Assembly (NCBI RefSeq): GCF_018143015.1
Contig: NC_054741.1
Location: 61,005,197 to 61,069,196 of the forward strand
Length of the DNA: 64,000 bases
Origin: Lytechinus variegatus
Taxonomy: Eukaryota > Echinodermata > Echinoidea > Temnopleuroida > Toxopneustidae
Direction of reading: 5' to 3'
Part shown: in pieces, positions 4,286 through 53,441 of the stretch
Layout of the letters: each line of letters begins with the position of its first letter
How positions within the stretch are numbered: position 1 is the first letter of the stretch
The notes under the pieces: model-generated
Databases searched by the model: none
What the model saw: only the letters and a program-made list of their open reading frames with translations
Told to the model about the DNA's origin: nothing
Position numbers and translations under genes: made by a program

Positions 4286-7200
4286 CTAAAGTTGAGAGGG
4301 GGAGAAAGAGAGCATGATTCAGTCATGAACAATATAGAGCAAAAAAGGAAGATAGACAGAAAGATTTACAGAGAGAAAAGGAGGGGTGGACAGACAAGAC
4401 GATTCTGAGCAATCAAGAAAGAGAGAGAAAATAGAAAAAAAAAAACAAAGATAGAGAGCAATAAACAATAAACGCTAATCCAATAACAAGTGGAATGCCT
4501 CTGGCCGTCTCACCTGCATCACGCGGTTCAATATAGCAGCAGTGCTGACTTTGAAAACTACTTTAACTCGCACAAGATGTTCAGTGATACATGGTTACTC
4601 CTATGTCCACTTTTTATGAACTAGACCAATAAACTTACAGAGATATGATGGTTATTCAACAAAAATCCCAACATGGCCAAAGTTCATTGACCTTACATGA
4701 CCTTTGACCTCGATCATGTGACCTGAAACTCGCACAGGATGTTCAGTGATACTTGATTACTCTTATGTACAAGTTTCATGAATCAGATCCATAAACTTTC
4801 AAAGTTATGATGGTAATTCAACAGTTACATCCAATTCGGAGAAAGTTCATTGACCTTTGACCTTGGTCATGTGACCTGAAACGCGCACAGGATGTTCAGT
4901 GATACTTGATTACTCTAATGTCCAAGTTTAATGAACTAGACCAATAAACTTTCAAAGTTATGATGGTACTTCAAAAGACACCCCCGATTCGGCCAAAGTT
5001 CATTGACCCTAAATGACCTTTGACCTTAATCATGAGACCTGAAACTTGCACAAAATGTTCAGTGATGCTTGATTACTATTATGTCCAAGTTTCATGAATC
5101 AGATCCATAAACTTTCAAAGTTATGATGGGAATTCAACAGATATCCCCAATTCGGCCAAAGTTCATTGACCCTAAATGACCTTTGACCTTGGTCATGTGA
5201 CGTGAAAATCATGCAGGATGTTCAGTGATACTTGATTAACCTTATGTCCAAGTTTCATGAACTAAGTCCATATATTTTCTAAGTTATGATGACATTTCAA
5301 AAACTTAACCTCAGGTTAAGATTTCGATGTTGATTCCTCAAACATGGTCTAAGTTCATTGACCCTAAATGACCTTTGACCTTGGTCATGTGACATGAAAC
5401 TCTGATAGGATGTTAAGTAATACTTGATTAACCTTATGGCCAAGTTTTATTAACTAGGTCCATATACTTTCTAAGTTATGACATCATTTCAAAAACTTAA
5501 CCTCAGGTTAAGATTTGATGTTGACGCCGCCGCCGCCGCCGTCGCCGCCGGAATAGCGGCGCCTATAGTCTCACTCTGCTATGCAGGTGAGACAAAAATC
5601 AGAGAAAGAGAGAGACAGATTAAGAAATCTCAAGTGAAATCATAACAAAACAAAGAGATTAGAAAGAAAATGTCACAATTGCACTTTAATGCATTCTATG
5701 CTGATATGTTAAATATTTGTAAACCCCCCCAAAAAAAAAAAAAAATCTTGATCAAACTTCTGAAATTTACAAACTGCATAATTGATATTCTTGTTAAACC
5801 AGCAATACTTAATGGTCAAATCAAAATCATTTAGGTCAGACTGGAAAAGGTAAAGCCCTAAAGTGGTCAGTTATTCACCAAGATATCTAGAATTTCCTGA
5901 TAAAGATGCACCATACCGTTCAGAATTCTTCTAGCAGGCATGGTCTCTGTGTCTCGCATGCTGCTGTGCTGGACTACCAATGCAATTAACCTGATGGGTG
6001 TTCTCAAGCATGGGGTATACAGTGCGTCCCACAAAAAACGAAACCGAGATTTATCGATGATTTATCATAACTTAGTCACAAATACAATAGACAAATGACC
6101 TACCATTTTAAAGCTTAGAATCTGCTCTTTCATCTGAAATTACTTAGGTTATTTCTCATTCACGCATGAGTGAGCAAAAAAATTTGAAAAGGGGATACCA
6201 AAAAGTCACTTGGCGGGCCGTATCTGGTTTTAAAAAGAAAACCACATTTCTAAAAAGTAATATCTGCTCTTTAATGTAATACCACAATTACAGAAAATGG
6301 TCAAGAAATAAAAAAGTTCTGGTCATTTGAAATAAGGCTTGTATTTCCATAATTTCATGAGATAAACGTGTTTTCACCGGTTTCCCACAGAAGCTTTCGC
6401 ATGGTGAACAAAAGATTTAATGCATGGCTGATCGTCAACAAAACGGAGTGTCGAGAGAGTTTGAACGCCAGCCTGGAGAACCTCTTCATTCATCTAAGTA
6501 ATATCAGATGAAAGAGGGGATTCTAAGCTTTAAATTGGTAGGTCATTTGTCTATTTTATTTATGATTAAGTAATGATAAATGATCGCTAAATCTCGGTTT
6601 CGTTTTTTCTGGGACGCACTGTATATTGATTCTTGATAGGCTTTTTAGATTCTAAAAAATTATGCCCAAAATCAAATACCACAGAATATTGATAATAATA
6701 TTTCGCATTTATCTAGCGCTTAACACATCGGAACAACCTCTCTAAGCGCTTTACAGATACATTACCCCAGTCATCGGATCCTTGCATGCCTGCATACAAT
6801 GTATGCACCTTCTCCACTCCCTGAGGAGCATTCCAACAAGAGTTCCAAGACTAATTGCTGGGCATTCTACATATAGGCTTTCACATCCTACCAGGTACCC
6901 TTTTAACACCTGGGTGGAGAGTGGCAAATTGTGAACTGACATCTTGCCAAAGGATGCTAGACCATGGTGGACTGATTCGAACACATGACCCTCTGATTAC
7001 AAGGCGAGAGTCAGAACCACTACACCACGACGCTTCCACAATAAATACAAGACAATCAAAATGAATCAACTCAGACCCCGATCCGTTTTCCTAGTCTGGA
7101 GTACCACCTCTTCAAATTTGGGCTTCTTTAATTTCAAGGTCTCTGGATGGAGATCACCATTTTTCCCATGGTAAATTAAAAATTGTGACGTCAGTGACAA

Positions 7201-16200: not shown

Positions 16201-19200
16201 GTAAAAGCTATACTCTGTATATACCCTCGATTTGATTAAAAATAGCGGCAGTCTGCGAGGTTTAAATGGCATTGATATCAAGAAGTTCCGGAGGCTCCAG
16301 ATGGACCCCAACCGCATAGCACTGCTGTATATGAGTATGGAAGGGTTGGCCATGGTCCCCAAAAGTTCTACAACCAAGAAAAAAAGGAGGAAAGAACAGC
16401 AAAGGAAAAGCGTAGGAAATGATTTTATTTACTAAATATAACGTCCAAAATATCTCAAAGTTAAATTCTCATGAAGATGTGATTTTTATTCTCGCTCGCC
16501 TCGCTCACTCCGGACTTATATTAAGCAGCTTTTTAGCACATGCGCCATACTGCGCCTCTCATTTTTTTACTCTTCACACTACTGCCGCAAAGAATCTTCT
16601 TCACAGTGGCATACTAACCACAAAAAAAGAATGGAAAGACAGAAAAGTGAAATATATTATTCTCTGGATATCATGTCAAAATCTATCACAAAATTGGATT
16701 TTTTGTATTAAAAAAGTCAAAATTTTTGCTCGCACACAACTTTTTATTTAAAGATAAATTCTGCCTGATACGCAATGTTTGGCCCTCTCAAAATTGTCAC
16801 CTCATTACACCATTACGCCTGTTCATACCATGAGATGACCGGGAAATTTGTGTCTCTTGCCCCCCCCCCTGGCCACCGACCCCTGTTACGCTGCTGGCAC
16901 TGGTTTACATTGACTTGGACTACAAGCAGCTGGCCTACTTCTCGGATATTCTAATACCACACAGACTAAAATCTGTTTGGTCTTTGGTCTAATTGCTGTT
17001 CAGTCTACACTACATTCGGCCTAATACCCACTTAGTCTAATTCTCATTTGGTCATTTGCCCAGCTGGTCTAATTTTCACCCAGTCATTTGCCCAGTACAT
17101 ATTAGGCTACTTCTTTTACTTTGTGAAATGAATATCTGGTTCATGAACAGTTCATCTAGCAATATTGATGAAGCGGTATTGGAAAAAGCAGATATCAGAT
17201 GAGATGGGTATGGCCTAACCAAAAAATAGACAAAATAGTGAATAGGCTAAATGACGATGAGATTATGATAAGTAGACCAACTAAGAGTAGAAAAGAAAAA
17301 AGAATGCGTGAGGGATTGCATGAAATGGAAAGTAGATGAAGCAAGTGTTGACAGATAGGCAATTTACAGAAGCACTTACCCAGCTGATTCTTGGAAGCTA
17401 AACTCTTAGGAGTGGCAATGTTGGAACCTGCATCTTGAAGAATGCATTGAATCTGAAACGATGAAAGCAGCATCGGTATAAAGTCCACCGCACTCAACCA
17501 GTTTATGACTGTTCTGTGACTGAGTGAGTGGAGAAGAATTGCAAGGTAGTCATAAGCCTTGACAATGCACACCTTGCGATCCGACTACCCTGCTGTCTGC
17601 GACTAACGCCATAGCAACTGAGAAAATTACGCTTATTACTGCGTGTTGCATATCATGTACGCGTCGAGACTCTGCTGTCTGATTGGATGGAAGTTGGAAT
17701 GAGCTTGCGATCCAGTTGTAAGGATTCAACATGTCAAATCCTTGCATGATGTCTCTGACCGGTCTGCGACTCTCAAGCTGACAAGAGCTGTGACGTCACA
17801 TTTCCCCTCACTCAGTCGCAGACCAGTCGGGTCGTAAGGTGTGCAGAGGCCTTAAGAATGCATGATGGTATGAACATGTGTTGAGGAGGCATGCTTTTAA
17901 GGAGAAGGGCTTTTGAGGTTGATGTGGACCGTTCATGGAGAAACGGATGACCAAAGAAGATGTGGAAGAAGAAAGTGGAGAAAAATAGGAGGGTTGGGCT
18001 GAGGATGGAGGATTAACTGAATAAGCCAGTTCGTAGTTCTATTCTGCGCATGATGAGAAGATTCTGCGTATGATTAGAAGGACATTTGTACCAAAGTGAT
18101 ATGGTGGTTTACTATTTAATGAGATAAGAACCAACTTTGATGTCTTGATTATTCATACATTCTTTTGAATTGTGATTTTTTATTAGATCCACAAACAGCA
18201 ACAATGCGTCCACTAGCGACTGGTATTTCACAGTTGGCCAAGCACATTGTTTTAACAACAAGCTATTTGATTCAAAGTAGAAATGCAACATAGAGTGTTC
18301 ATTGGTGTGCTATTCTAGTCACCTGGGGAGCGTTTCATCAACATTTTTGTCCAACAAGTTGTCAGATCTGACAATTTTTCTGGATTTTGATTGGCTGAGA
18401 AGCACTGTTACTTTGGTAACTGTCGGATAAAATGTCTGACAAGTCCTTTCATGAAAGGCTCCCCAGGTCTATTCAATTTTCTTCATCCTGCTATGTAAGG
18501 GCCTGATAATGTACCCTCTAAAATGCTCAATTGTATATCTCGCTCAATTGCACCCCCTTTGACTTATATCATTAATCAGTCTATACTTTCAAGCACTGTC
18601 CCTAGTCAATGGAAGTTAGCGAGAGTTACACCAATTTTTAAAGGAGGTAGTAAATCATGTTTTGATAACTATCGTCCGATTTCCGTTATTTCAGTCTTGG
18701 GCAAAGTTATGGAAAAAGTAGTACACGACCAATTGATGCATTTTATAACTAAAAATAATATTCTAACTCCGTTTCAATCCGGCTTTAGACCCAAACACTC
18801 AACGCAAACTGCATTGATAAATGTAACTGATCAATGGCTTTCTTCAATTGACAAAGGGGAATTAACTGGCTTGGTTATGATTGATCTAAAAAAGGCCTTC
18901 GACACGGTGGACCATTCGATCCTGTTGGATAAAATGAAAATGTATGGATTTGACCATCACACCACTGAATGGTTTCAGAATTATTTATTTCAAAGACAAC
19001 AGTTTACGTGTATTAATGGTATATCATCTCTTACAAGGCAGGTAAACTGCGGTGTGCCACAAGGCTCATTGTTAGGGCCCGTATTATTCTCATTATATAT
19101 AAATGACCTACCTGATAAATTACACTGTAAAGTGTCTCTCTACGCGGACGATACATGTATATTTTATTCTTCAAAAAATCCCGAAGTCATAAATAATAAG

Positions 19201-22200
19201 CTGAATGAAGATTTATCGATTATTTCATCTTGGCTAAAAGATAACAAATTAATCATTAACACCACAAAATGTGAAACCATGTTTATTGGTTCAGCCCAGA
19301 GGCTTAAGAAAAATGAAACCGAACTTAATAAATGCAAAGTATGTATTGATGACTGTGAAATAAAAAGAGTTCGTGTTTGTAAATATTTAGGCATATATAT
19401 TGACGAGTCTCTACTCTGGAACGATCATGTCCAGTCTCTATGTAAAAAAGTTATAAAAAGCCTATATCTCCTTAGAAGAATTCGTTACTACATTGATAAA
19501 AAAACTGCTCTCTTATATTACAAAAGTATCATCCAGTCTCAATTTGATTACTGTAGCACGGTTTGGGGTAACACGGGTAAAAACAATTCTAAACAACTCC
19601 AAATTTTGCAAAATAGGTCCCTTCGATCTGTTCTTAAAGTGGACCATATGTATCCCACTAAAGTATTATATAACACCCTAAAACTTGATAATCTTGAAGA
19701 CCGTAGATCAAAACAGTTGGCTCTTTCTATGTATCGTGCCGTCTACAAACTTGCTCCTGATTATATTTGCAATACATTTTCCATTCGTAACACACCCTAT
19801 AATACCAGATCTGGAAAAACCCAATTAAGGTTAACGCATCCAAAGACGAATTATGGTAAAAGATGCTTCGTCTACCGAGGTGCCCAAATATGGAACTCTA
19901 TTGAAAAGAAAATCCCTCCTTGTATCACTATACATTCCTTTAAAACACATCTTAAAAACATGCTCATCCTGATTATTGATGTTAAAAGCTCCTGCATCAT
20001 CCCCCCCCCCCTCATTTCAATCCCTTAGCCCCTGCTTGAGTTTAGTTTATCTTTAAGTTATTTCTCTATTGTTTTACATTTATTCCTTGCTTTTAGTCCC
20101 CCTATTGTTTTTATATATATTTTGCTTTTATTATCATATTGTATTTTGTTTCTTTCGCCTTTTATTGTATGTTCTTATGATTTATGTCATATGATTTTGT
20201 GTTTTTGTAATTATCATGTTTGATTGTTTATTGTACATTTTTATTGTTGTGTGTATGGACCCCTACGAAAAACAGCATGTGCTGATAGGGTGTTCCATCC
20301 CACAAGTGGTAAATAAATAAATTAAAAAAAAAAAATGCTCACATAATATCTTGCTTTGAAATCTGCCTATCAAAACGAAAGAAATGAAAGGTCATTTGAC
20401 CAAAATTGACCATGAAGTAACTACGAACTGGTATATTGTATAAGGTAAAGGTTGTTGAAGGGAGTGTGAGGGTTTTTTTTTCAAACTTTGGACAACTGAC
20501 TGAGTGTTGTAGTTGTTATGAGGGTAAAAGTGGCAGTGCTAAAAAAGGTGCTTGAATGACTGAAATAACTTTGTTCTGCTAAAAAATGCACAATTCTAAA
20601 TGGACACACAAATATCATGAGATGGCGCTAGACTAAAAAGGTATAAACAAGAAAGGGTTCTGGTTTCTTTAGAAGTAGGCTCCCATGTGTTTGGAATAGA
20701 AAAAGACCCATCTTTTACACAAAAGGAGTGACATTATTGTGATAATTGGTGATGTTAGGTGGAATGGTGAATATATATCACTTATTATAATAAATATTAT
20801 TCAAATGGAGGTATGCTCATAAGGCTGTCCAAGCCAAAACTTCTTTTAGTTGGTAGATCAACCATTAACGCTTTCCACTTAAACAAAAATTAATAGAGCA
20901 AAAACATAATGTAAGTGACACTAATCATTGTAAATTCATCACTGTGAATCTGACTTAAATGAATGCATATTCAAGCAAAAAATTAGAATAAAAATGAAAA
21001 GTTAATGGCTTCTAAATTGATGAGATAAAACTTGAATTCCATCAGGCAACCTCATTTTCCTTATACTGAAGAGTAGTTGGACTATGTGCGAGAGTATAAT
21101 TTAACTCCAAATCACAATCACTGTAAAAGGAAATTACTCAAAATTTAAATCTCCATTTCAAAAAATTAATTTGTATCCATTTGTCCTTTTTTATTGTTAA
21201 GCACTTACAGATTAATTACTATCAATATAAGCACTATATAAGCTAAAAAGAAATATATATTTAATTAATTACCTCCTCTAGCTGTAGATTTGTCGCTTCT
21301 AAATTTGATTCCAGCACAAACTCTCTTGCAAGCCTGTGAGAGAGAAAAATAAAAACAAAAATACTAGAAATTGAGAAGAGTAGCAAAAAGGGAAGAAAAA
21401 CATAAATCTATGGCAGTATAACAAGAATTGCTGTGCATTCACCAATGCTCGCATGTGTTCTGCTACAAAAGAGGGGGTGAAATAACTGGTGAAAATGGGA
21501 AGTCAAGCAAGCAGTAGAGAGGGAGAGCGAGAGAGATATATATATATATATATATATATAAAGGGGGGGGGGTGAAGGGTCGCATTTAGAACGAGAAAGA
21601 AAGGAAAGAATTTAAAGTACACTGGTAAAAGGCAGAGCAAGAAACCAAACATATTGTACATATATAGCAAAAGTTTACATATTTCTATTTGTTATCGATT
21701 CCTTACCCTATCTGTGAGGAAAGTTCATCTGTGGCCCCAAGAGCTTCAAAGACTTGATCATTCTTTGGCCTCCTGTCCCCAGCTATCGTAACAGATGTAC
21801 CTAGCACAAATCAAAATGAAATCAAGAATAAACTGATCAATACCACTTCGTACAAAATCATTATTGCAGCATCAGTACAGGACTGAACCACTTCCCAGAT
21901 CACTTCTATCAAGTTCTACATAAACAATATTTTGTTTCTATCCTGGCTAAGAAGGTGCATCTAACCAGTCTTCCACAAACCAGTCATCTGTCTCCTGTCC
22001 CTCTTATTTATTCATCTTCATCCTGTATGCGTGGGGAGCATTCATCTTCCATAAGCCCCAAGAGCCTCAAAGTCATAGTCATTACCAAAGTCATAGTAAG
22101 TCATTAACTGTATTATTAAAGGGGAAGTTCACCTTGACAAAAAGTTTATTGTAAAAAAAGCAGAAAAAGTGATAAAAAATATTGCCGAAGGTTTGAGAAA

Positions 22201-26913: not shown

Positions 26914-28139
26914 ATTTCTGGCTCTTGGATTAATTTTGAAAGGAAATTTATAAAATTACCAAATTAACCTGCACAAGTTTCTTAACACATGGGACTGTAT
27001 CATTTATTCCGAATTGGAGTGCTTCCCTTTTTTTCAATCAATAATATGTATTTTACATAATAAAAGTATTAATTAAAATTGTTTGACATATACAATCTGA
27101 GTTAAAAATAAATATTCATTAAAAATTGGATTTATAATAATTTTCAAAATATTAAATTCAATTTGGATTTTCAGATAACATCATTTTTTACTTGAAGCAG
27201 ACAAATTGGACACTATTTTGGAGGTGTCCACTAGTAGATCTGGCCTGCCACGGGAATAAAAAAAATATATTTCCGTGCATATCGCTTTATCCTGCTGCTG
27301 ACAAAATTCTACGCGATACACAGGGGCCGTCTCTTCAAATTATAGCAGTTACATCTTAAGTGAAAATAAACAAACGAAGTTAATCATTTGATATTGGTGA
27401 GTATAGAGCTAGAGTCATGAGTGATGAGATTAGCTTATTAGATGTTGTGAACTTGTGGAATCGGACATGGGACTTTGGCTGTGTGTTGTTAGCGTTAGTG
27501 TTATTGTTACTTAATTTTTTCTTAAAATCAAATCAATGAATGTCCTGCCGTTTATCAATGAACTTCGAAGTTCAATTAACTTCTTGCCTGGGCTTGGCTT
27601 GCTTTTTTTATGTGGTATTCATGGTATTGGAAATTACAGATTAACAGGGGCCTAAGATGCTAATAATAGGGTTACCAAAAGGAAAATCTAAGTTTTTAAA
27701 TCTATGTTAAAAAGCATTGAAAAGTACCTCACCTGAATCAGCATACTCAAAAACCCCAAGTGAATGACTTTTGGTATATCAAAGAGATCTAATTATCTGT
27801 TAATCTGAGGCTAAATTAGGTCCGAATTGTGACAGTTTTTGTGTACAAATTTGTAGTTGAAATTTCGTCGACACGCATGCACAAAGCTCGGCACTGAACG
27901 AGGGATTGTGGGCGTGTCCTTTCTCGCCTCGGCCTATTGTTACCCAAATAACGAAAGTACGTTCATCGTCCCAGTTAGTCTCGGATCCGAGCTTATCCAA
28001 ATACACAATGATTAAAAAACAACCCAAAAATAAAAAGAGAAAAGAAGAAATAAACGGCTCAAATGCAGTCGTTTGGTGACGGATAGTATGCTCTGACATC
28101 TCGCTGATATAAGGATTAGACATGGCATAAGTTTTATGC
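26914..28139. other. 5' flank of MMAB
   Basis: Should hold the promoter and 5' UTR. No TATA box placed convincingly. MVK, the divergent neighbour of MMAB in vertebrates, was looked for and not seen. ORF 27800-28123 on the minus strand has no family pattern. Confidence 0.4.
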
Positions 28140-28680
28140 TATGATAACTAAAGCATGGGGGGGGGGGGCGAGGGCACTCTGACTTTCAAAATTATTAATT
28201 CTTTAAACATCTATATCTAGACAAGGGAGGGTCCAGGATTTTCCAAAGGGGGGAGCATTATTATCTACGGCAGTCAAAAAAATTTAGGGGGGGCACCAAC
28301 ATTTTTGACAAAAAAAGGTTATCAAAGGGGGGGGCGAAAAAAAAAATTGCCCAAAAAAAGTAACGTCCCCCCATAGGCAGCGCGGGGGGGGGGGGGGTCG
28401 TGCCCCCCCTCTAATTTTGAGGTGGGGGACGATCGCCCCCCTAATTTTTTTGTTGATAACCTTTTCTTTTTTGCTTGTCAATTTTTTTTTCGTGCGTGCC
28501 CCCTAAATTCCAGTGGACCCCCCTAAAAAAATCATGTGGTTTCCCCTAAAATTTGTGCTGATAAACTTTTTTGGGGGGATAGGGCTTGTCACTAAAGTTT
28601 GGTGCCCCCCCCCCTCCCAAAATTTTGCTTTCCGCTGCCAATGGTCCCCACTTGAAATTTAGGGGGATAAGGCCTATGGA
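28140..28680. repeat. G-run/C-run repeat block
   Basis: Poly-G and poly-C runs of 8-13 in both orientations, with the phrases GGTCCAGGATTTTCCAAAGG and GCCCCCCCTCTAATTTTGAG. Looks like abutting inverted pieces of the G-rich repeat family; no gene. Confidence 0.55.
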
Positions 28681-29062
28681 GGGCACATTTTCCCGATACA
28701 AATTTGATATGCCTTAAAAAATGTTTTTACCAAAAATGGAAAGTCCTTTCGTCCCTAAAAATTGACAAGCAAAAAATAGGGCCTATTAACAAATTACAAT
28801 ATTGGCTCTCGATAATTATGCCCCTTGGATCCACCAGTAATCTAAGGGGAATTTTTTATAGTTTTGATATGGCTACCTTCTCGGAGGGCGTCCTCGCCGC
28901 GGTAGCTGGATAGTGCTGCAAAAGAGTAGGCTTTATACTTCTTTTGCAGCATTAACTGACACTCCGAGACTTATAATTTTACCTTATACTTAAAAAATGA
29001 ATGATACAAAATAAAACATAAACACTTGTTTTTAGAGTAAGTTGATGTAAAAATATATTCAG

Positions 29063-30370
29063 TCTGGGGCCATTGGCGTAGCAACGGTGGGCCGGGGGCA
29101 TCTGCCCCCCTGAGATTTGGGGCCCCTCCCCAGGTCCCCCCCAGAAAAAATTGGAAGAGAAAAAAAAAGTAAAGAAAAAAGGGAGAAAGAAGAAATAAAA
29201 AGGAAAAGAAGTAGAAAGACAGAAGAAAAAAGAAGAGAAAAATAAGGAGGAAGACGAGTGAATGAAATAATGTGAGGGGAAGACTTGCAATTTTTAAAAA
29301 ATCTTTTCATGTTACTATATAAAATTTTTGCTGGCGCTTTGCGCCATAATTGCCTGTTCGATGGGATTCATATCTTTCTCAATAGGCTGATGTGGAGCAA
29401 GTTTTGAAGTCAATATGCAACACATATTTTAGCTCGGACATCGAGCTTTCATTATTTTTTTTCATTTACAAATTTAATTGCTCTGTAAAATGTCCGTTTT
29501 ATGGTCTACATTATCAGCATTTTAAGCTCATGCTGCGTGGTCACATTGTTTGATTTGCCAAGTTCATATTGTCTACGGGTATTCCATAATGTTCATTCCA
29601 TTCAACAATTCAGAATGCCCAGAATTTAGGTCTGAATATAAAACATGCGCGATAGCGTGCACGTTCTTTATTTAAAATGTACTTAAATTATTCAGTTTTA
29701 CATCAGAATATCAATAATTGTCTGCTCACGCTTCACGATCGCATTATTAATGATACCCAATTGACTATATCCTATTTATGACTTACAAAATATGAATAGA
29801 GTGTCCCGCTTTTAGGTCTAAAATCTCAGTTATCTTTCTCTCGCGCTTCGCGCTCGCATCAATTGTTTAGTTAAATACCTATCAGCTATCCCATTAATTA
29901 ATACAAAAAGTGCTCAGAATGATCACGTTTTTTTAGGTCGGAATGTCAAAAAATTTGCTCGCGCTTCGAGCTCGCATTATTGAAATATATACCGTCTTCA
30001 TGGGTAACTGTAAGCAGTCCTTAACAGGTCTCTTTTCGATAAGGCTAGAACAGTTGATAAAAATTTATGTTCAAGCTTGGGGGTACATACGAATCTTGTT
30101 GAGGATCACACATAACATTGCCCAGAAAATTAAATTTCAGGAAAAATACATTAAAGTATAAAAAAAAAATCGCTCGCGCTTCGCGCTCGCACTTTTATGA
30201 GATTATTTTATGTTTATGTTGTTTTATAAGAATAAAACTAACAAGTGACTGATATAGGTGAAGATAATTTCGGGCCCAATCCCCTATTGGCGAAATTCGG
30301 ATCTCTTGTGGACACATACACACCCCCTGAAAAAGCAAGGACCCTGGAAAAAAATCCTAGCTACACCACT
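29063..30370 (+). repeat. G-rich headed element with GCTCGCGCTTCGCGCTCGC array
   Basis: A head (TGGCGTAGCAACGG, CATCTGCCCCCCTGAG) is followed by a polypurine tract. Then come about seven copies, near 29331, 29432, 29646, 29725, 29842, 29957 and 30172, of a motif like GCTCGCGCTTCGCGCTCGC, spaced about 110 bp or multiples. The sequence between motifs is diverged and AT-rich. ORFs in the region are not proteins. Confidence 0.75.
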
Positions 30371-30739
30371 GTCTGGGGCATGGAGACTTGGAACTCTGCC
30401 CCATATCACTGTGCTTGCCTCGCTCGATTTGTATCATAAAAAAAATGTTTCCACATTAAAATACAGATCTAAGTACAATGGCCAGAAATGTTAGTACGAA
30501 TAAGCTAGCAGAATTTGTATCATACCACCCATATAATTGAACGCCAACGAAGGCGTTTCTAAAACCTGTTTGTTTTATCCTACTTAGTCTCTACTTTTCC
30601 GCTAAGATCTATCCCTTTTGCGTGTCACATGAAAGTAGTTTTGTGTGCAGATCTAGCGTACCGGTAGGACCACATGCAGTCATTAATAGGTCTCTATTTT
30701 TTTTCAACAAATGATGTCTCACTCACGCTTTCTTTAAAA

Positions 30740-31420
30740 TTAATAAATTAGAGTCCTTGTATATGGTCCTGGGAAGTGGGGTGCTCGGGTTGTGACCCCC
30801 AAGATTTTTTTTTTTTTAGCTGGTGGTGCGTTTTTTTTTGTACACGTACGACAGGGGGAGTGGAGCAAAGTTGAAAGTGGGGAAACAGAAAAGGGGCACT
30901 TTTTAGTGATTTTTTAAAGTGGGGGCATTGAGCTCCCACCTATCCCCAGGATCGCCGCCCCTGAACCAGAAGCACCATCCCCTGGAAATCAGTTTAGTAT
31001 GATATTCGACCAAAATCAACTTATCTTTAGAGAGATAATTTCTTTCCCTTGGCTTTTTTTTCAAAGCCAGCAACCCCTTTAAAAGATATCTCCTCGGGCA
31101 ATCCTCATGATTATCTAAAAAAATAGTGACGGATGTATACCTGGTAATCATATTACTAGCAGTGGCGGTATTGCCACCCCCTCCCAGTTTTTTTTTTTCA
31201 AGTAGTTTAAAACAGAAAGAAGAATGACATTGATTTTTGTACCGCATTATATTTCATTAATAATTTCATTGGTAGAAACACACACACAAAATTCAAAATT
31301 TCATGTTTAGCCCCTTTTTCAAAACTATTCCGCGGCTCCTTGAAGAATGGAGAGATGGATGAAAGGAGAGAAACAAATAGGATGAAGGGGTTGATTCAGC
31401 TTTCGTCAAGGGGGGGGGGG
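30740..31420. repeat. Mixed fragments with T-runs and G-rich pieces
   Basis: AAGTGGGGTGCTCGGG, two long T-runs, GACAGGGGGAGTGGAGC and CCCCAGGATCGCCGCCCCTG resemble the ends of the G-rich repeats. No gene recognised. Confidence 0.4.
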
Positions 31421-32775
31421 CGAATTCTTTTTTCACCCGTATTTTTCCCCAAGCGGCCGCGCGAAGATGATTTATATTTGTTTCTTTGAAGAAATGTTAC
31501 TTTTTAGCTTTTGTCTTATAAATCAACATAGATATATAACCCTTTTTATTTAGTGCCAGCGCAAAGCGCGAGCTAATTCATTGAAATAATTATTTTTTGA
31601 TCCACAAACTTTGAAATTTCTGGGCAATGTTTATCATGAAATAAAATGTTTATGCAACTAAACAATTACTAAGAACGCAAAGCGCAAGCAGAATTGACAT
31701 CATATATAGGCACTTTTTGTAACTTAAACAGGATAGGTACGCAACTCAGCAACTGATGCGAAGCGCGATCACAAAATTTGAAGATTTAGACCTAAAAACG
31801 AGACATGTCTATTCGTGTCTTTTTACATCATGCAAGGAAAGGATTTTTTGCCCGGGGATTTTTGTATACGTTTCGAACTGATCAAAAAGGTACCTGTTAA
31901 GGACTATTTCACTTAATGGAGACGTTACTTCAACAATAAAATAATGCAAGCGCGAAGGGCGAGCCCGGCGATTTTTTTTGGACTCTTCTAAATAAAAAAT
32001 GGAAAATTTAAATCAGTTATTGTGACCATGAACAGGATCGTCGCTATAAAACAATTAATGCGAGCGCCAAGCCCGAGCAGAAAAAAAATCGAGATTTAGA
32101 CCTAAAAAATGGGACACTCGATTCATGTGTTGTACATCATGAAAAGGATGAGTAATAGGGGTTCCTCCTACATTAAAAATGCGAGCACAAAGCGCTAACA
32201 TAATTTTGTTTTTCTGAAACTGGATAATAATTATTGAAATACTAACAAGTTGAGTATCTGGATAAACATGCGCGCGCGTGTTTCCGATTTATGCCTACAA
32301 TCTAGGCATTCTGAATATATATTTAATATACGAAAATCCAAGCGAGCACGAAGCGCGTCCTTAAAATATTTGATATTCCGATCTGAAAAAAGGATAGATT
32401 TCAGATCAAGTACTTTGTGAGGTGCATTTGGATCGCACTTAATAAAGAGCTGATATAGATTTGACAAAGGATCGGACCTGAAAGTGATGAATATTTTTCT
32501 ATTCCTCTTGTTAAGCGCGAGATGAAACAAAATGGACAATTTAACCATTAAAATTAATATCTGATCTATTAATGCCTAACGACTTACCTATTCAAGCACG
32601 CACGCTCAATGCTAACTGATATAAGATTTTGAGAAATTTATGAAATAGGGCCTTCATGAAGAGTGTAGGTAGTCCACAAATGAAATAATGCTCTAGGGCA
32701 CAGCGTGAGCTAAAAATGTTGATACTCAGATCATAAGACAAATATTTTACAAAGCACTTTTTTATTGATTCGTGA

Positions 32776-35654
32776 TACCTCGGTCACATTTTTTTCTAAG
32801 GTGAGTAGAAAACAGTTGTATTAAACATTTTTTGTGTGTGCCAGCTAAATATTGGTGGTTTCAATAAAAAAGAATGAAATGGCTGTTTCGACTTTCTAGT
32901 CAGGCAGCATATGTCATGATTTACCGGCTACTTCGACAAATTGGCTAAGTCTGATTTTTCACTTTTATGTGATTGGTGACATCACAAGGAACAACTTCCA
33001 ACTTGGTGACAAATTTCTAATGGTCATCTTGACCATGTTAGGGGTCAAAATGTGGTCAATAGGGGTCAATTTTTTAAATTGCCCCAATTCTGTCAAATGA
33101 CACATCAAATTGTTTGTCTTGTTATACTGAACAAAAAAGTGTACACAATCATATACTCTTGACCTCCCGTTAAAAAGTTATGACCGGAAATGTCAAAGGT
33201 CAACGAACTTTTGTTCAATGGCAAATTACACTGAAGGTGTTAAGAAAGCTCATTTTTTCCGTGTTTTTATGCATGTGTGTACTTTTTTATTTTCGATTTT
33301 GATAAGTCCATCGTCAGAAGTCCTTATCCAGAAGGTATAATAAAGGGTCAAAACAAGGTCAGGGAAAGGTCAAAAGGTCAACAAACTTTCATTGGAGGCC
33401 AAAATACACGTCTAATATAGCGGTTAGAAGTTTAGAAGTCTTATTTTTCGTGGGTTTTTTTATTTTGAGTCTATATCTAAGAAGATATTTTATATACAAA
33501 GGGGTCAAATATGCTTATTTAGGAACAATATAGATAAACAGAGATAGACGTCGAATACATTCAGTGTGGTATGGTATTGCAGGAATACTTTGAAAAGACT
33601 TGACAAACCCTTATGCCCTTAAAATCTTATGATCTTCAAGATGTGATGAGTGCAACCAGGGTGTTTTTTATTTAGGAATTCAATTCAAGTTCAGTTCACT
33701 TTCCATTTTCTAATCTTTGATATGTAAAGAAGTATTTCCTTCATTTGCTTTGTACAGAATATCTTAATTAACAGAAATTATTGTAATGTATTGGGGTATA
33801 AGTATAATACTATGTTAACAGAAAAAACACATCGATTGATCAGTGCTCCCAGCTCCTCAGAAAGATGCCCAACATTTTATTTGGATTATCTTGCAAATAA
33901 GATAATGAGGTTAGGATTGAGGATGATAAGTTGGGCTTCAATTGCTCCTCAATTCATTCTAATGTCTGACGGTCATATTGTTTCTGACAAAGAAGCAACA
34001 TCGTGTATGCATGCTCATTGTAGTCATGGATGTCCATTATGCTGATGTAATATATTCTGACCATTACTCGATCTCTGGAGTCAAGAAGGACTATATTCAC
34101 ATTTATGGTTCATGTGCTGTTCTAAGCTTATCATTGGGCCCTTTTGCATTTTGTAAAGTGAAAATTTATAAGGATTTCGTGCATACTTTTGGTCAATTGC
34201 ATTTATTTTTTAGTAAAAATGCAAGTCTTCACAATTTCTGGGGGCAGCTGCCCCCCCCCCCTTCCCGCTGCGGTATGGCTGTGGTTTACTTCAATTATAT
34301 AATTATTCTTTCTAGTAACATGCAGGTAATTCAGCAAGTAGGAAAAAAACAAGAGCGATTAAGTTTAGTTTCACGTTGTATGCTCTGGAAACACACACTT
34401 GATAAAATAGTACAAGCCGCGTTAATGTCAGCACATAATCAGGAATGTGTAGTCGTTGGCTCCAGAGATCGAGTAATGGTCAGAACATATCACATCAGCA
34501 TGATGGATACCCATGACTACAACGATCATGCATACACGATGTTGCCTCTTTGTCAGAAATAATATAACAGTCACACATTAGAATTAATAGCAATTTGAGT
34601 CCAACTTATATCATATCATCCTCATTCCTTACCTCATTATCTTATTCGTAAGTTAATCCAAATAAGATGTTAGGCATCTTTCTTAGGAGCTGGGAGCACT
34701 GATCAATCGATGTGTCTGTTAACATAGTGCACATAATTATATTCCCCAATACATTACAATACACTCTCTATTGATTAAAATATTATGTACAAAGCAAACT
34801 AAGTATTAAATGTATCTTTACATGCAAAGACGAGTAAATTGAAAATGAACTGAACTTAAATTGAAGTCCTAAATCCAGAAACTCGGAAAGAGCTGGTTGC
34901 ACTTATAACATCATGAAGATGATTTTAAGGGCATAAGAGTTTTTCAAGTCGTTTCAAAGTACCACACTGAATGTATTCGACGTCTATTTCTGTTTATCTA
35001 TTTTAAATAAGCATATTTGACCCCTTTGTATATAAAATATCTTCTTAGATATAGACTCAAAATAGAAAAACCCACGAAAAATAAGACTTCTAAACTTCTA
35101 ACCGCTATATAAGACGTGTATTTTGGCCTCCAATGAAAGTTTGTTGACCTTTTGACCTTTCCCTGACCTTGTCTTGACCCTTTATATCTTCTGGATAAGG
35201 ATTTCTGACGATGGACTTATCAAAATCGAGAATAAAAAAGTACACACATGCATAAAAACACGGAAAAAATGAGCTTTCTTAACACCTTCAGTGTAATTTG
35301 CCATTGAACGAAAGTTCATTGACCTTTGACATTTCCGGTCATAACTTTTTAACGGGAGGTCAAGAGTATATGATTGTGTACACTTTTTTGTTCAGTATAA
35401 CAAGACAAACAATTTGATGTGTCATTTGACAGAATTGGGGCAATTTAAAAAATTGACCCCTATTGACCACATTTTGACCCCTAACATGGTCAAGATGACC
35501 ATTAGAAATTTGTCACCAAGTTGGAAGTTGTTCCTTGTGATGTCACCAATCACATAAAAGTGAAAAATCAGACTTAGCCAATTTGTCGAGGTAAATGACA
35601 TATGCTGCCTGACTATTCCGCACGGCCGCGGTACAAGCAAATGTGACCGAGGTA
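32776..35654. mobile_element. MITE carrying a 2.7 kb foldback insertion
   Basis: Outer ends are TACCTCGGTCACATTT and AAATGTGACCGAGGTA, beside TA. The first ~120 bp and last ~40 bp match the left and right ends of the intact 164 bp MITE at 53278, so a small MITE has been split by the foldback at 32897-35615. The whole lies inside a GCGCGAAGCGC-type repeat element. Confidence 0.85.
32897..35615. mobile_element. 2.7 kb foldback element with about 1.2 kb inverted arms
   Basis: Left arm 32897 to about 34085 and right arm about 34458 to 35615 are inverted copies that match nearly base for base over long stretches; differences are mostly single substitutions and short indels. The loop is about 370 bp. 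Tips read TAGTCAGGCAGCATATG and its complement. No transposase ORF is present; the ORFs across the loop (33791-34045, 33978-34562) look non-coding. The arrangement recalls the TU foldback transposons known from sea urchins, a comparison from general knowledge only. Confidence 0.88.
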
Positions 35655-36139
35655 TAAATAAAAAAAATAATAATGAAAGTTCAATGTTCTATAGCTGACT
35701 GTAGAGTATATGTTTTGTATTTTGACTGCAAAGCTTGAAATGTCAAGCTGATATATATCAGCTATTGAGCAATATGTACTCATCGAAAATGAGCAATGCG
35801 AGTGCGAAGCGCGAGCGAAAATGTCAATTTTGCATGTTTTTTTTTTAAATCATCAAAGTCTATCCCCTCCCTAATTTTATTCACTTTTCTCCCTCCCATT
35901 CCCCTCTTCCTTTTCCCCTCTCTTTTCCTTCTGTTTCTTCTTCCTTTCTTAATTTTTTGGCCAACGGGGTGGGGGGTGACCGGCCCCCTGATCCCTTCTT
36001 TGGTAGCGATTGTGAAAGCATTTGAATTATTCACCTCACAGTGCATGTTAAACGGGGAAAATAGGAAATGGCTAATTTTGAAAATCATTAATGTGATGGA
36101 GCCCTATTCAAGTTTATTTTCATTTATATACACCTTGAC

Positions 36140-36560
36140 AGGGGCTGATCCAGGATTTTCAAAAGTTGAGGCATTCAATACAAAAAAATAAACAAGACCT
36201 AGTATACTAGACCCCCCCCCCTTTAATAGGTGAAATTTGCTAGGAAAAAAATCATCAAAAGTTGAAAAATAAGTCCTCACTTGAGAATGAACGACAAAAT
36301 CCACTAACAAATATTTGATATATTACGGGAGGGGGCACCTTTATTTTTCTCCCCTTTCCTTATTCCTCATCCATTCCATAGGCAGATCCAGGTGCCGGAC
36401 CCAATTATGGGCGGCGGCACCCCCTCCTACTGGCGGTGCGAAAAATAAAAAGAAAGGTATATCATGCTGTTTTGTTAAAGAAAAAAAAATCGGTTTTTTA
36501 ACGGCGCCGATCGGGGAGAAAAATTGTAGCCACCCCCCATTAGCAAAATTTTGATCTACA
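36140..36560. repeat. Fragments of G-rich repeat family
   Basis: GGGGCTGATCCAGGATTTTC at 36141, a C-run at 36212 and GGCAGATCCAGGTGCCGGAC at 36380. No coding content. Confidence 0.5.
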
Positions 36561-36894
36561 CTGGGTATTTGTCTGTCGTACCTCTGAGTAAATGAAACAA
36601 AAAAATCAACAAATCACCGTTGCACTATAGTACTAAAATTTTTGCGAGTCTTTATTTTTTAAATATTTTTGTTTATTAATAATGGAGGTTCGCATCCCGA
36701 GAATGTGAAATGAAAAAAAAAAGAAAAAAAGTGCACTTAATAGGAAACACTAAACGTCCTTTTCAATTCCAATTAACTTAAAGTCCTTTAAATAAAAAAA
36801 AAACAAGCATCATTTTTTATACCTTAACTTGTTCATCACGAATACAATGAAACCGATAATTATTTGCTTTGTTTTCGATTAATCTTTATATCAT

Positions 36895-37375
36895 TAATTC
36901 ACTTAAAATAAAATTCAAACATAAACAGGAAAACAGCACAGAAAATAATATAAAAAATGAATTGCAGTTGTATAAAACATCAGAGAAAATAACATGACAG
37001 CTAAATTCTATCTCGACAGGCACACTGTTCATTCGACCATAAAACAATCGCGCTGTTCCACTCTTTGTATACCCACAACTCTATCAGTATTGTTTCATCT
37101 TCATATGTCCTCAATGGCAAGGACACCAGCATAATAAATTCACTTCAAATAACATTCATACATACATATACAGGAAAATATCAAAGAAAATAATATAACA
37201 AATCAATTGCAGTTGTATAAAACATGGAAGAAAATAACATGGCAGATGAATTTTATCTCGACAGGCACACTAATTCATTCGATCATGAAACGATCGCGCT
37301 GTTTCACTCATTGTACACGCGCAACTCTATCTGAATTGTTTCATCTGTCCTCAGTGCGGCAAACACTAGCAGTGA
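36895..37375 (+). repeat. 240-bp tandem duplication
   Basis: 36895-37133 and 37136-37375 share AATTGCAGTTGTATAAAACA, AGAAAATAACATG, TATCTCGACAGGCACAC, ATCGCGCTGTT-CACTC and TGTCCTCA in the same order, with roughly one difference in six bases. No coding frame is kept. Confidence 0.85.
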
Positions 37376-40053
37376 TGATAAGTGCACAAGTTGCAGTTGG
37401 ACGTGCGCGGAGAATGAATTAAATTCGGCGGCTGAGTCAAGTCTACAAGTCACCAACGAACTTCACGATAGACCACGCCTACTTGCCGAGGTAACCAACG
37501 TTGATTGACGGCCCATTTAGTTTTTTGAGTAGTAGGAAAAAGTGCAGGCATGTATAAACTTCATTTTAATTTGAATTCATTCAAAAAAAGCATTTTTCTT
37601 CTAATATAGATGTTTCCAAAATATTCCATGTGTAAAACATAATTTTTAAAACATTTATTGCTATATTTTTGTAATGAAAAAAGGATTTCTTACGCAACAA
37701 CAAGTATGATATGTGTGGGCAAGAGAACTACCGTTTTAGTCATAAACCATATTTTTTATGATTTTATTGTGAGCCTACTCAAAGGATTTTCGTTTATTTT
37801 TTATGAATTTCTAGACCATGTTCAACAGCGCCATCTCGAGCTTGCAATAATGCATGCGATCGCACGCATTTTTCTCCATAGCGAATACACGCGACGATAA
37901 TCGTGGATTTCTCGTGGATTTAACCTCCAAACGTCACTTTCGATACCACATGAAGGTAAGACACTTCATCCCACATTAGTCAAATTTAATATAGACAACA
38001 ACGAGCCTAAAATTTGTAACTAAGATGAACTAATTTGCTGAGGAAAAGCATTTCAATGCTCATTTTTGCCATCGAGAACAGACGATGGGTGGCAATGCGC
38101 ACGATTTACGCACTTGCAATTGGCTTTTCATTTGCCCATAGGCTTTTTGCTCATTGGATCGGCCGACCTTTTGGTAACCCTACTAATAAAATGACTGCAT
38201 CGTATTGTAATGAGCAGTGATGAGTGTAGAGTGTAGACAGCTGGCAGCCGTCTGCTTCGAGGAGTTTTTAAAATTTTTTTTTTTTTTTAATTTCTCCTCG
38301 TACACAGACGGCTCGCTATCGTGCAGCCAATTTTACAATGCAAAATCCCCCCGTCGGGGCTCTTCAATTTTTGTCTTTAATCAATCAAAATTTTCAAAAT
38401 TAACGCAACCGAAATGCAAATTAAGATTCCCTCTTGGAATTAATTGCCAAAAAATGGGGGGAAAATCAGGTTGAAAGGAACAAAACAGTGACTAACCTTG
38501 GCTGTCGTGCAACTTCACTTCCTGTTTTATCCGAACTTATAATACATAAATATATGGCCATTGAGTCCCCTGTACAGATCGTGCTAGAACTTCGGTCTCT
38601 GTATTTGGTGAGTGAAGCCAACGGAGTTCAGCTAAACAACCAACATAACAGAGACCAAAGCTTTTGGTCTATGATGAGTGTGGCATGATTATTGTGACTT
38701 GACATTGGGATTGTGTCTGACTGTCCGTCAGTAGGCCTAACTTTAGTTACTAATCATATTCATGACATAAGTGACTGTGGCTGAACAAGATTTCTGCACA
38801 TTTTGTACTAGGATTCTATCTAGGCCTTTTCCCTAATTTCTTCTTGTGTCAGCATTTTTAGATCTGAAAAAGTTAGACCTAACTGTTACAGTTGTACATG
38901 TAAGCATAGGCGGCAGAAGCGGGGGGATGGGGGGGGACATGTGTCCATCACAAAAATTTCAGATAGACCCCCTCTAATTTTTTTGGCTTCCTCCCCCAAT
39001 GTATGTAAGTTAGGCCTAGGCTAACCCTTTTCCTTTCCAAATCATGCATGGGGCCCTAAATCTAAAGCTACGCACCAGCGAAAAAAATACACGGGGGTGG
39101 CGGGCGAATTCGCCCCGGAAATGCCTAAAGTCACCCTCGAATTCACCCAAAATCATGCTTTGGGGGGCGAGATGAAATCTTAATGTCGCCCCCAAATTAT
39201 TGCCAGGCGATAACAACTCACTGGCCCACAAGCGCCAGAGCGACGAACGATTCCTATTCTGTATTAAATTTTTTCTCAGAGGCTGGAGTAAAATCTCTAA
39301 ATGCAGAGAAAACCCACATCAGTTTGTAATTTTACAGTTATATTCGCTTTAATTTCATATTAATATCCTAAAATAATGTGAACATATTTTAGAAATTGGG
39401 GCACAGCCACTGGAAGTACTATTTTTTTGATGATCATAAATCAAGTGGGTAGCTTTAGGACCCCTCCTACAAAGTACATCGGGTGGCAAAATCAAGAGGC
39501 GTTTCGAATACATGGCAGGATTTTCATGTTAATGAGTTTTGTGATATTTTCTTCTTGGTTAATGATCTTTAGAATGTCTGCCACCAAAGTGAAAGATGCA
39601 TGTAATTTGTTCAAATATTTAAATTAACATATTTTTTATCATTTGTAAACAAAGCGTGTAGCTTTAGCCCTCCCCCCCCCCCCCCCATCATAGATCTAGA
39701 CCATATGCAATTGTGTGTAGGGAGTCTATTACATGTACATGTAGATCTATAAGTGATTGTATTTATACCTACATGTACTGGCTTTGTATTACCAAATGCT
39801 CGTTTTTATGAATCAGAAATTAATTTCAATACGCTCAAAACTTTGCAACATCCTTCCAGATGGAACTAGAGTAGAAAGATGATGAAATTGGTCAAAAACA
39901 CATTTTTCAATATCATATAAAAATAGCTCAGATATCAGTGATTTTTGTTGTTTTTCAATTATTTCCACAGAAAACACACATGTGGTCAATACCATTTTCA
40001 AGTGACCGAAATATATCACATGCAAAGAGGGTTGTGATTGGAAGCTGATATAA
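37376..40053. other. Intergenic stretch upstream of PHETA
   Basis: Includes an inverted pair near 38240-38310 (GCCGTCTGCTTCGAGGAG / CTCCTCGTACACAGACGGC), an inverted pair GGTCTCTG/CAGAGACC at 38595 and 38652, a G-rich fragment at 38920-39200 and a C-run at 39670. It may include an unplaced 5' exon of PHETA; no protein-coding exon recognised. Confidence 0.4.
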
Positions 40054-43554: not shown

Positions 43555-44055
43555 AACTTCCTGATGTGAATAGCTCTTATTGGAATCTTGATGATCGGAC
43601 ACTTCCTGTTGGCAGCTGCAGTTCTCTCTCGCGGAGGAGACGGGAATCTCGGCCCTAATGTGCAAAATCGCTCGTTGCCTAATATCTGCAGAATAACGGT
43701 CATTTCCTCTTGAGTGGGCTTGTTGCCAGTTTTGACAACAGGCTGTAAATAGTGTATTGCTGTGTAAACCAGCTACGTATGTATGAGGTTGAGTCCATGG
43801 CATGCTGTGCTTACTGTGGACAGCGAAGAACAAGTGCATTGGAACAATACATCAAGAGGCTTGTATTAGGTCAGTGAGTTAAAGTTACTGATCCTTCCAC
43901 TTGATCTTGGTCATGAACAAGGATCGTCCACATTTGGTAAAGGAAGAAATGATGAACAGGAATGTGTAACCTATTGAAATATACAGACACAGCATTTGGC
44001 GAAGAGCTGCGGTGTGTTTTGATCGGTTGATTCGTGCGGAGCTGCAGACGTCAGG
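43555..44055 (+). other. Probable 5' UTR part of the PHETA coding exon
   Basis: A good splice acceptor (TTTTTTGTAG) ends at 43554, and the sequence to the ATG at 44056 is more GC-rich than its surroundings and has no repeat signature. This suggests a non-coding first exon further left, which I could not identify; a donor-like GTGAGT near 38609 in a CpG-richer stretch is one unproven option. Confidence 0.4.
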
Positions 44056-45219
44056 ATGAAATTCAACGAGAAGAATGTATCTTACTTTGCATCATGCAAT
44101 TCGCCAGTCGATAAGACTGGATCTTTACTCAAGAAAGCGGATAATCACCGCAACTTTCAAAAGCGCTGGTTTGTGCTGAAAGGCAATTTGCTCTTCTACT
44201 ATGACAAGGAAGGGGACAAGGAACCCCAAGGGGTCATTATCCTGGAAGGATGTCGAGTGGAGCTTGCTGACCTGGAGGACTGCCTGTACTGCTTTCAGAT
44301 TTCTTTCTCTCTGAAGGATTCACGGACGTATGTCATGGCAGCCACCAGCCAGGAAGAGATGGAGTCTTGGATGAAGGCCTTGTCTTGCTCCAGCTATGAC
44401 TACATGAAAGCCATGGTGGACGAGCTTCAGAAACAGCTCGACGATCTTTCACATGGAAATAGTGAAAACTCTCCCGCTATGGTTATCCGGACATCGGTCA
44501 TTCAGAGTTCTGAGGTCCCTGAGGCAGATGGTGCAACAGGCAGATCGGCACCTAGTTCTATTCCTGCAATACCCGAACATGTCTTGGAATTACCCCCGAA
44601 GCAAAACATGAGCACGTACGAGCGGGGCAAGACGGAATCACTTGCTCATAAGGGGGCTCCTCGTCAGAGTGCCTATCAAAGAAATTCATTGCCATTTAAC
44701 AATTACAGTAACCCCTCTTATGACATTTGGGACCCCCTTGTTTCTTCAAGCAAAAATCCACCTGAACAATCAAATGGAGCTGCAAAGCCGATACCCCAAT
44801 TTGTAGTCGAGCAAGATAGCAGTGATAGTGAGGATGACGAAGTAAAGCCATCAGATTCTGCAAACAACTCTAACAAGAATGCCCAAACAGACTATAAGGC
44901 TGACCAGACCGACGGTCAGCATGTGTCTAGGTTAGCATCAAAAGGTCGCAAGGTCATGTCTGTATTCTATGAAAATCTCAACATGCCTCTCATGTCGGGG
45001 TCCAGCGATACCAGTCCCAGACTCACCAGGAAGAGTGTGTTTGGCCGGGGAGGCAACGCCGCTGCACAGGGTCCCAAGCAGGCCCAGGCTGGACAGTCCG
45101 TCTTCCATGTCCACAACGAAAATGTCAGAACTTTCTCAGACATGCACGAGGAGTTTGGAATGCTTATTGTGAGAAAGATGAATTTGTTCCGTCAGAGGAA
45201 AACTTCAGGATCATCTTGA
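44056..45219 (+). CDS. PHETA1: Sesquipedalian-like PH-domain endosomal adaptor (PHETA/FAM109/IPIP27)
   Basis: 387-residue protein read in one exon. Residues about 18-112 form a PH domain: TGSLLKK, then RNFQKRWFVLKGNLLFYYDK, VIILEGCRVELAD and the closing SWMKAL helix; the basic beta1-beta2 loop suits phosphoinositide binding. A short helix (MVDELQKQLDDL) follows, then a long polar linker, and at the C-terminus TFSDMHEEFGMLI. The last piece is a phenylalanine-histidine (F&H) motif, F360/H364/F367, by which the family binds the inositol 5-phosphatase OCRL. In vertebrates these proteins act in recycling and endosome-to-TGN traffic. The N-terminus (MKFNEKNVSYFA) matches the vertebrate family start, which fixes the ATG. 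Vertebrate members have about 250-260 residues, so the linker here is roughly 130 residues longer. Vertebrates have two paralogues; this is probably their common orthologue, so the symbol is nominal. Confidence 0.93.
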   Translation: MKFNEKNVSYFASCNSPVDKTGSLLKKADNHRNFQKRWFVLKGNLLFYYDKEGDKEPQGVIILEGCRVELADLEDCLYCFQISFSLKDSRTYVMAATSQEEMESWMKALSCSSYDYMKAMVDELQKQLDDLSHGNSENSPAMVIRTSVIQSSEVPEADGATGRSAPSSIPAIPEHVLELPPKQNMSTYERGKTESLAHKGAPRQSAYQRNSLPFNNYSNPSYDIWDPLVSSSKNPPEQSNGAAKPIPQFVVEQDSSDSEDDEVKPSDSANNSNKNAQTDYKADQTDGQHVSRLASKGRKVMSVFYENLNMPLMSGSSDTSPRLTRKSVFGRGGNAAAQGPKQAQAGQSVFHVHNENVRTFSDMHEEFGMLIVRKMNLFRQRKTSGSS

Positions 45220-53277: not shown

Positions 53278-53441
53278 TACCTCAGTCACATTTTCCCGAC
53301 GGTGTCCGTACGGGGCGAGTCGAAAAACAGCCGTTCAAGCATTTTTTAATAGCTACACATACTAGGTGGTTTGAAAAAAAAAATGAAATTGCCGTTTTCG
53401 ACTCACCGTACGGCTGCCGTAGAGCAAATGTGACTGAAGTA
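53278..53441. mobile_element. 164 bp MITE, TACCTCAGTCACATTT family
   Basis: Ends TACCTCAGTCACATTT and AAATGTGACTGAAGTA. The interior is itself near-palindromic (CCGTACGG, GAGTCGAAAA / TTTTCGACTC). Same family as the outer element at 32776. Confidence 0.85.

Follow-up and report, generated by a model that had tools for sequence, protein, structure and literature searches.

Foldback transposons, of which the Drosophila elements FB, Galileo and Tetris and the sea urchin element TU are the closest described types, consist mostly of long inverted arms and are present in many copies, and no coding capacity has been found in them. Elements of the FB/TU type carry tandem repeats within their arms, and TU combines tandem repeats with 8 bp target duplications. 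In the excerpts available of their descriptions, the target duplication is 8–10 bp for Tetris, for which likewise no autonomous partner was found (PMC4079207), and 7–8 bp for Galileo of Drosophila willistoni (PMC4168063). We analysed a 64,000-nucleotide stretch of the Lytechinus variegatus genome (the window), in which a foldback of 2,719 bp at 32897..35615 resembles these elements in its long inverted arms, its many copies and the lack of detected coding capacity. Whereas Mutator-type foldbacks (FB, Tetris) generate duplications of 8–10 bp, 42 of the 48 copies of the window family with both tips have one of 3 bp, and in contrast to the FB/TU type the window foldback is without tandem repeats in its arms. 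Both traits set it apart from FB, Tetris and Galileo, as these are described in the excerpts. Among the papers listed on foldbacks and TU elements, on transposons with long inverted repeats and 3 bp duplications, on arm conversion and on sea urchin transposons, no title or abstract opening contained a description of this family. Repbase, as outlined in the available excerpt, sorts non-autonomous elements according to their first 11 bases and the length of the duplication (PMC4455052), and the foldback family may already be catalogued there.

The locus is very probably a nest of three DNA transposons, the innermost of which is an old palindrome with gene-converted outer arms and drifting inner arms. 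The nesting itself is ordinary; the points of interest are the 3 bp class of foldback and the half-converted palindrome.

The nest and its empty sites

An intact MITE of 164 bp is located elsewhere in the window, at 53278..53441 (+), as the preliminary description had reported. A second member of the same family is interrupted by the foldback, with its left part at 32776..32896 (+), ending in a TTC target copy, and its right part at 35619..35654 (+). As had also been recognised, its outer ends match those of the intact element: TACCTCGGTCACATTT starts exactly at 32776 and its complement, AAATGTGACCGAGGTA, ends exactly at 35654. The inserted unit has tips of its own, as claimed earlier; these are 21 bp terminal inverted repeats, TAGTCAGGCAGCATATGTCAT, that are 100% complementary (32897..32917, + and 35595..35615, −), and they are flanked by the 3 bp target duplication TTC at 32894..32896 and 35616..35618. 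The interruption of the MITE therefore stands, and its point lies 3 bases beyond the one given previously because the duplicated TTC comes after TTTCGACT. The MITE from which the unit and one TTC were removed aligned without a gap at the junction; once rejoined, it was 76% identical (106/139) to the window's own intact MITE and 75–83% identical to 20 genomic copies.

The MITE family is older and more abundant. It is short and non-coding, has inverted ends and occurs in many copies, as is typical of this class, and the 40 copies scored from 1579 first-look candidates (the window's own included) were all single pieces of 147–172 bp with 78–81% identity to the window copy. The flanks of the intact window copy and of 20 genomic copies (L071–L090) are mostly TWA on both sides. 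When left and right flanks were compared (n = 22), 6 were equal, 8 were reverse-complementary and 8 were neither. The middle base often differs between the two sides, which is odd for a simple 3 bp duplication.

The genome (870 Mb, 33 contigs) was searched with the interval 32776–35654. Among the 40 of 1160 first-look candidates that were scored, only the window's own row started before query base 111 or ended past base 2848 of 2879, and 26 further near-full-length copies comprised the inner unit only. MITE tips on both sides were present in 1 of 50 foldbacks, the window's own; one other (L020) had a one-sided MITE-tip match with 3 mismatches. The flank to the right of the nest (35656–36255) is itself repeated: among the 40 of 305 candidates that were scored, 17 other places matched it with 91–100% identity over 598 or more of its 600 bases. 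These 17 paralogs were fetched together with three weaker ones (L107, L109 and L110). The MITE was uninterrupted in 17 of the 20, and the foldback was absent from all 17. The empty site was exactly TTTCGACTTTCCGCACG, with one TTC, in 13 of these and a one-base variant in the other 4 (one C-to-T, three with CTC replacing TTC). Identity over the joined 1.2 kb was 99.2–99.75% in 12 of the 17 paralogs and 90–98% in the other 5. The three weaker paralogs gave no alignment across the site, L109 aligning on both sides of the MITE and not over it. Foldbacks without MITE ends and sister sites with an uninterrupted MITE both support the nested insertion that had been suggested at the outset.

The alternative put forward with that suggestion was that the MITE derives from the large element, i.e. 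that a single element with TACCTCGG ends spans the full 2.9 kb and gave rise to the 164 bp MITE by internal deletion. Although the small element and the outer ends do have terminal sequence in common, these ends are missing from the 26 further near-full-length copies, and with MITE ends on both sides of just one of 50 foldbacks the MITE cannot be such a derivative. The empty sites, exact with a single TTC in 13 of 20 paralogs and one base different in 4 more, lead to the same rejection, and we give the single-element explanation practically no chance.

Beyond the host repeat recognised previously, we found that this repeat is, judging by its TAGGGTTACCAAAAGG inverted ends and 7 bp duplications, an entire element of 7.8 kb and hence a third layer. 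It extends over 27667..38182 (7,794 bp without the foldback), with TAGGGTTACCAAAAGG at both ends and the target duplication CTAATAA at 27660..27666 and 38183..38189. Since the nest sits inside this element, the proposed order of host repeat, MITE and foldback holds; the foldback was the last to insert, its target being the MITE within this particular host copy. Two 9.9 kb stretches contain further host copies that skip the foldback in alignment: L111 aligns to 27661–32896 (99.1%) and 35611–38182 (99.6%), and L112 to 28032–32896 (98.1%) and 35611–38184 (98.9%), position 28032 corresponding to the first base of the L112 stretch. All three host copies for which both ends were read have a 7 bp duplication, namely CTAATAA (window), TTATTAT (L111) and CTTCAAG (L116/L117, on C17). 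Host copies with as little as 90% identity (L106 and L108) still have the MITE, which therefore predates the spread of the young host copies. In the proposed sequence of events, the 7.8 kb element would already have held the MITE when spreading.

The ends of hAT transposons are TAGGG-like. Their target duplication, 5–8 bp in the excerpt available (PMC4482050), compares with the 7 bp of the host element, which has TAGGGTTACC ends and in which the 11 frames scanned, of 24 frames of at least 65 aa, gave no Pfam match above cut-off; the nearest match below it was Inp1, at 22.6 bits vs 23.0.

The window foldback differs from the consensus of the other 11 copies of its subfamily at 18 of 2712 sites. 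For the window host copy, compared with a consensus built from 14 others, the figure is 3 of 1200. Both divergences are low. The larger deviation of the later insertion is explained if, rates being equal, some of the foldback changes predate its jump.

Several other features were observed in the host element and elsewhere in the window. A tandem duplication of ~240 bp (82%) lies inside the host element at 36890–37371. The window repeat at 6016–6626 recurs as the reverse complement of L111 8384–9204, ~0.5 kb to the right of the point where the host element ends in that stretch. A tandem array with a ~163 bp unit and divergent copies occupies 4565–5524 of the window. A 509-codon frame at 18499–20025 (+) contains a reverse transcriptase domain (RVT_1, E 2.3e-41) and belongs to a LINE-like element, and a long open frame with a PH domain at 44023–45216 (+) is probably a host gene exon.

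Tips, target duplications and the search for a partner

The 17-mer from the foldback tip had 427 matches in the genome (216 + 211) with at most one mismatch, compared to 1 for its reversed control, and is therefore not a chance occurrence. Both tips were present in 48 of the 50 foldbacks read (L001–L050), and the 21 bp tips were nearly invariant across copies; the unit is mobile with conserved tips. Equal 3 bp flanks were found in the 42 copies mentioned above; when the offset was shifted, in seven different ways, only 0–3 of the 48 had them. In 40 of the 42 the duplication has A or T as its central base, and no further motif was evident.

Long inverted arms of ~1.2 kb each make up most of the element in the 27 copies compared and were also found in 20 further foldbacks. 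The arms of the window copy consist of a block of 412 nt at 99%, one of 203 nt at 94% and blocks of 84–96% toward the centre. We found no direct-repeat family in 32000–36500 and no TRF array in 32897–35615. Two closely related subfamilies were distinguished among the 27 full copies: A (n = 12), to which the window foldback belongs, and B (n = 15), with identities of 98–100% within A, 95–100% within B and 94–96% between them. More distant elements, at 74–90% in the best BLAST piece, are included among the 20 further foldbacks. Two foldbacks at different genomic places, L028 (3,673 bp, unequal flanks TTT/ATT) and L029 (3,680 bp, flanks TAG/TAG), share an insert of ~950 bp at the same point, near CCCGGGGGGGGGGCACTT, so that a loaded foldback seems to have moved as one unit.

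CACTA/EnSpm elements end in CACTA/CACTG, the target duplication of Harbinger is TWA, and Academ is counted among the families with 2–4 bp duplications. In the excerpts available, the duplication is 2–4 bp for CMC (CACTA/EnSpm) elements (PMC4482050) and 3 bp for Zator (PMC10045372). Both fit the 3 bp of the window foldback in length, whereas its ends, TAGTCAGG, differ from those of CACTA/EnSpm. The PIF/Harbinger group (PHIS) makes 3 bp duplications too, but the motifs given in the excerpt, ANT for Pangu and CWG for NuwaI (PMC4482050), differ from the NWN of the window family. The TWA of PIF/Harbinger does not fit the same 42 duplications, of which just 3 are TAA or TTA despite the prevailing central A or T. 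By duplication length alone, the likely enzyme class is that of the 2–4 bp duplicators (CACTA-like, Zator, Academ).

The foldback looks non-autonomous. Its longest frame (199 aa), the one frame scanned, had no Pfam match up to E 0.1, and the longest frames in L031–L050 were 80–144 aa. A search with 12 bp of the tip and any next base except A found 18 places (reversed control, 14), with no inverted pair. The corresponding search with 17 bp of the tip and a base other than T gave 7 places, one of them foldback L037, with no pair among the matches listed. Among the 100 tips listed of the 427, 24 were unpaired; 20 of these were read inward, and all led into a foldback arm that continued for between 77 bp (L063) and ~700 bp, where the stretch ended. 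A further two unpaired tips are those of L014 and L016. A genome search with PF07592 (ISAzo13-like transposase) returned nothing, and control genomes were equally silent. Tip variants and inward-read tips (100 of 427 listed) thus revealed no coding partner, and an autonomous copy with the full 21 bp tip could hide among the 327 remaining tips. As no transposase gene was found in these searches, we infer the cutting enzyme. A cellular DDE transposase would act on the 21 bp tips by cut-and-paste; supplied in trans, it would have inserted the non-autonomous foldback into the MITE through a staggered 3 bp cut at TTC.

Histories of the outer and inner arms

In the window foldback the outer left arm (~650 bp, 32897..33546, +) appears homogenised with the outer right arm (34983..35615, −). 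The inner left arm (33547..34084, +) does not appear so with the inner right arm (34456..34982, −), and the two are 82–90% identical in 100-base bins beyond arm position 700. The centre (34085..34455) is unpaired, with 371 nt between arms I3. Arms were compared in 41 of the 50 foldbacks, leaving out rearranged copies (L035, L036, L038, L040, L041 and L046) and copies with large indels (L028, L029 and L030). Arm identity within a copy, in 100-base bins, was 89–100% over the outer 600 bp and 81–95% at 700–1200.

Trees were made from 18 of the 41 foldbacks (36 arms). For the outer 550 columns, a single clade of all left arms was rejected (p-AU 8e-66). Support for both arms of a subfamily grouping together was 95/96 for A and 98/97 for D+E, and was moderate for C (85/79) and A+B (80/84); the best tree did not contain B as one outer-arm clade (p-AU 0.068). 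A single clade of all left arms was obtained (99/99) from the inner 500 columns, and the subfamily clades were rejected there (A 2e-5, B 1.5e-10, C 7.5e-4, A+B 1.5e-4 and D+E 3.7e-3). Clades were named once the distances had been seen, such that none of the p-values, outer or inner, is blind. In their outer ~550 bp the arms therefore cluster by subfamily, and the inner arms cluster by side. One old palindrome with outer arms homogenised several times would explain these opposite topologies.

Single copies also contain tracts of opposite-arm alleles, in the left arm of L017 (72–376), L022 (72–280) and L020 (280–488, and 72–92) and in the right arm of L026 (72–244). The tracts of L017, L026 and L011 differ from the opposite arm of their own copy at 2, 0 and 0 positions, respectively, and from the arms of other copies in the subfamily at 3, 2 and 1 positions at best (medians 8, 5 and 2). 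The L022 tract has 2 differences from the closest of the other right arms and 7 from its own, and that of L020 is a tie (own 2, other 2). In the 12 A and 15 B copies, the mosaic L044 left out, other-arm alleles occupied 14/120 (A) and 53/416 (B) outer cells (~12%), 1/119 and 17/444 middle cells, and 6/1337 and 34/1700 inner cells (0.4–2%); as switched cells are not independent, Fisher values are descriptive only. At two tip sites the counts were 0/48 for A and 0/60 for B.

We infer that the process is gene conversion and that a threshold of similarity limits it. The arms would exchange sequence mainly over the outer ~500–650 bp that are still alike, and because conversion would act mainly there, several subfamily lineages would have had their outer arms renewed, with the inner arms drifting apart. 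Arms of chromosome palindromes are described, in the excerpt available, as evolving in concert by arm-to-arm gene conversion (PMC8981503); the foldback arms likewise evolve in concert. In contrast to those palindromes, the present one is mobile, measures 2.7 kb and has 427 tip matches in the genome, and just the outer half-arm is renewed.

The subfamily palindromes might instead have been rebuilt by template switching during post-excision gap repair that started from the tips. Confinement of subfamily-level renewal to the outer part adjoining the tips is in keeping with such repair, as is the mosaic L044, in which tip site 31 of the left arm has the right-arm allele. The tracts that can be seen are interstitial, however, and the tip-adjacent side-specific sites, which repair from the tip should include, are unswitched in all A and B cells counted above. 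The spared tip argues against repair from excision ends, and we consider this route unlikely. Selection for transposase binding could also have conserved the outer arms so that they just look homogenised. It would account for the nearly invariant 21 bp tips, but does not produce the contiguous switch tracts seen in L017, L020, L022 and L026 or identical derived states in both arms of a subfamily, and is in our judgement highly improbable. Gene conversion between the arms is the explanation we retain.

The timing of homogenisation was assessed within subfamilies. On average, outer arms were as similar within a copy as between different copies (0.977 vs 0.976 for A and 0.944 vs 0.942 for B), so conversion after insertion is rare, most of the homogenisation having taken place in the ancestors of the lineages, before the individual insertions; post-insertion conversion as a general rule was rejected on these values. 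Copy-specific changes common to both arms in A numbered 5 in the outer part, compared to ~1.4 expected from the arms of other copies, and none in the inner part, and 6 such changes in B were slightly above the ~3.9 expected.

A further and speculative idea, to which we assign a rather small chance, is that the palindrome renews itself: arm-to-arm gene conversion would keep the family mobile by regenerating the outer arms, and new subfamilies would be founded by freshly matched copies. If so, matched outer arms would be a condition for mobility, the inner arms would already be below the similarity needed and decaying, and conversion, not the transposase, would pick the next master copy.

The locus offers a clean stratigraphy within one genome, in which a single insertion can be read with its target duplication alongside 17 sister sites that are uninterrupted. 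A 3 bp duplication is a length not reported for foldbacks in the excerpts of the descriptions compared, and its difference from those foldbacks makes the enzyme behind the family an answerable question. With many natural palindromes in one genome, conversion tracts, tract length and the similarity limit become measurable, which bears on palindrome survival outside sex chromosomes.
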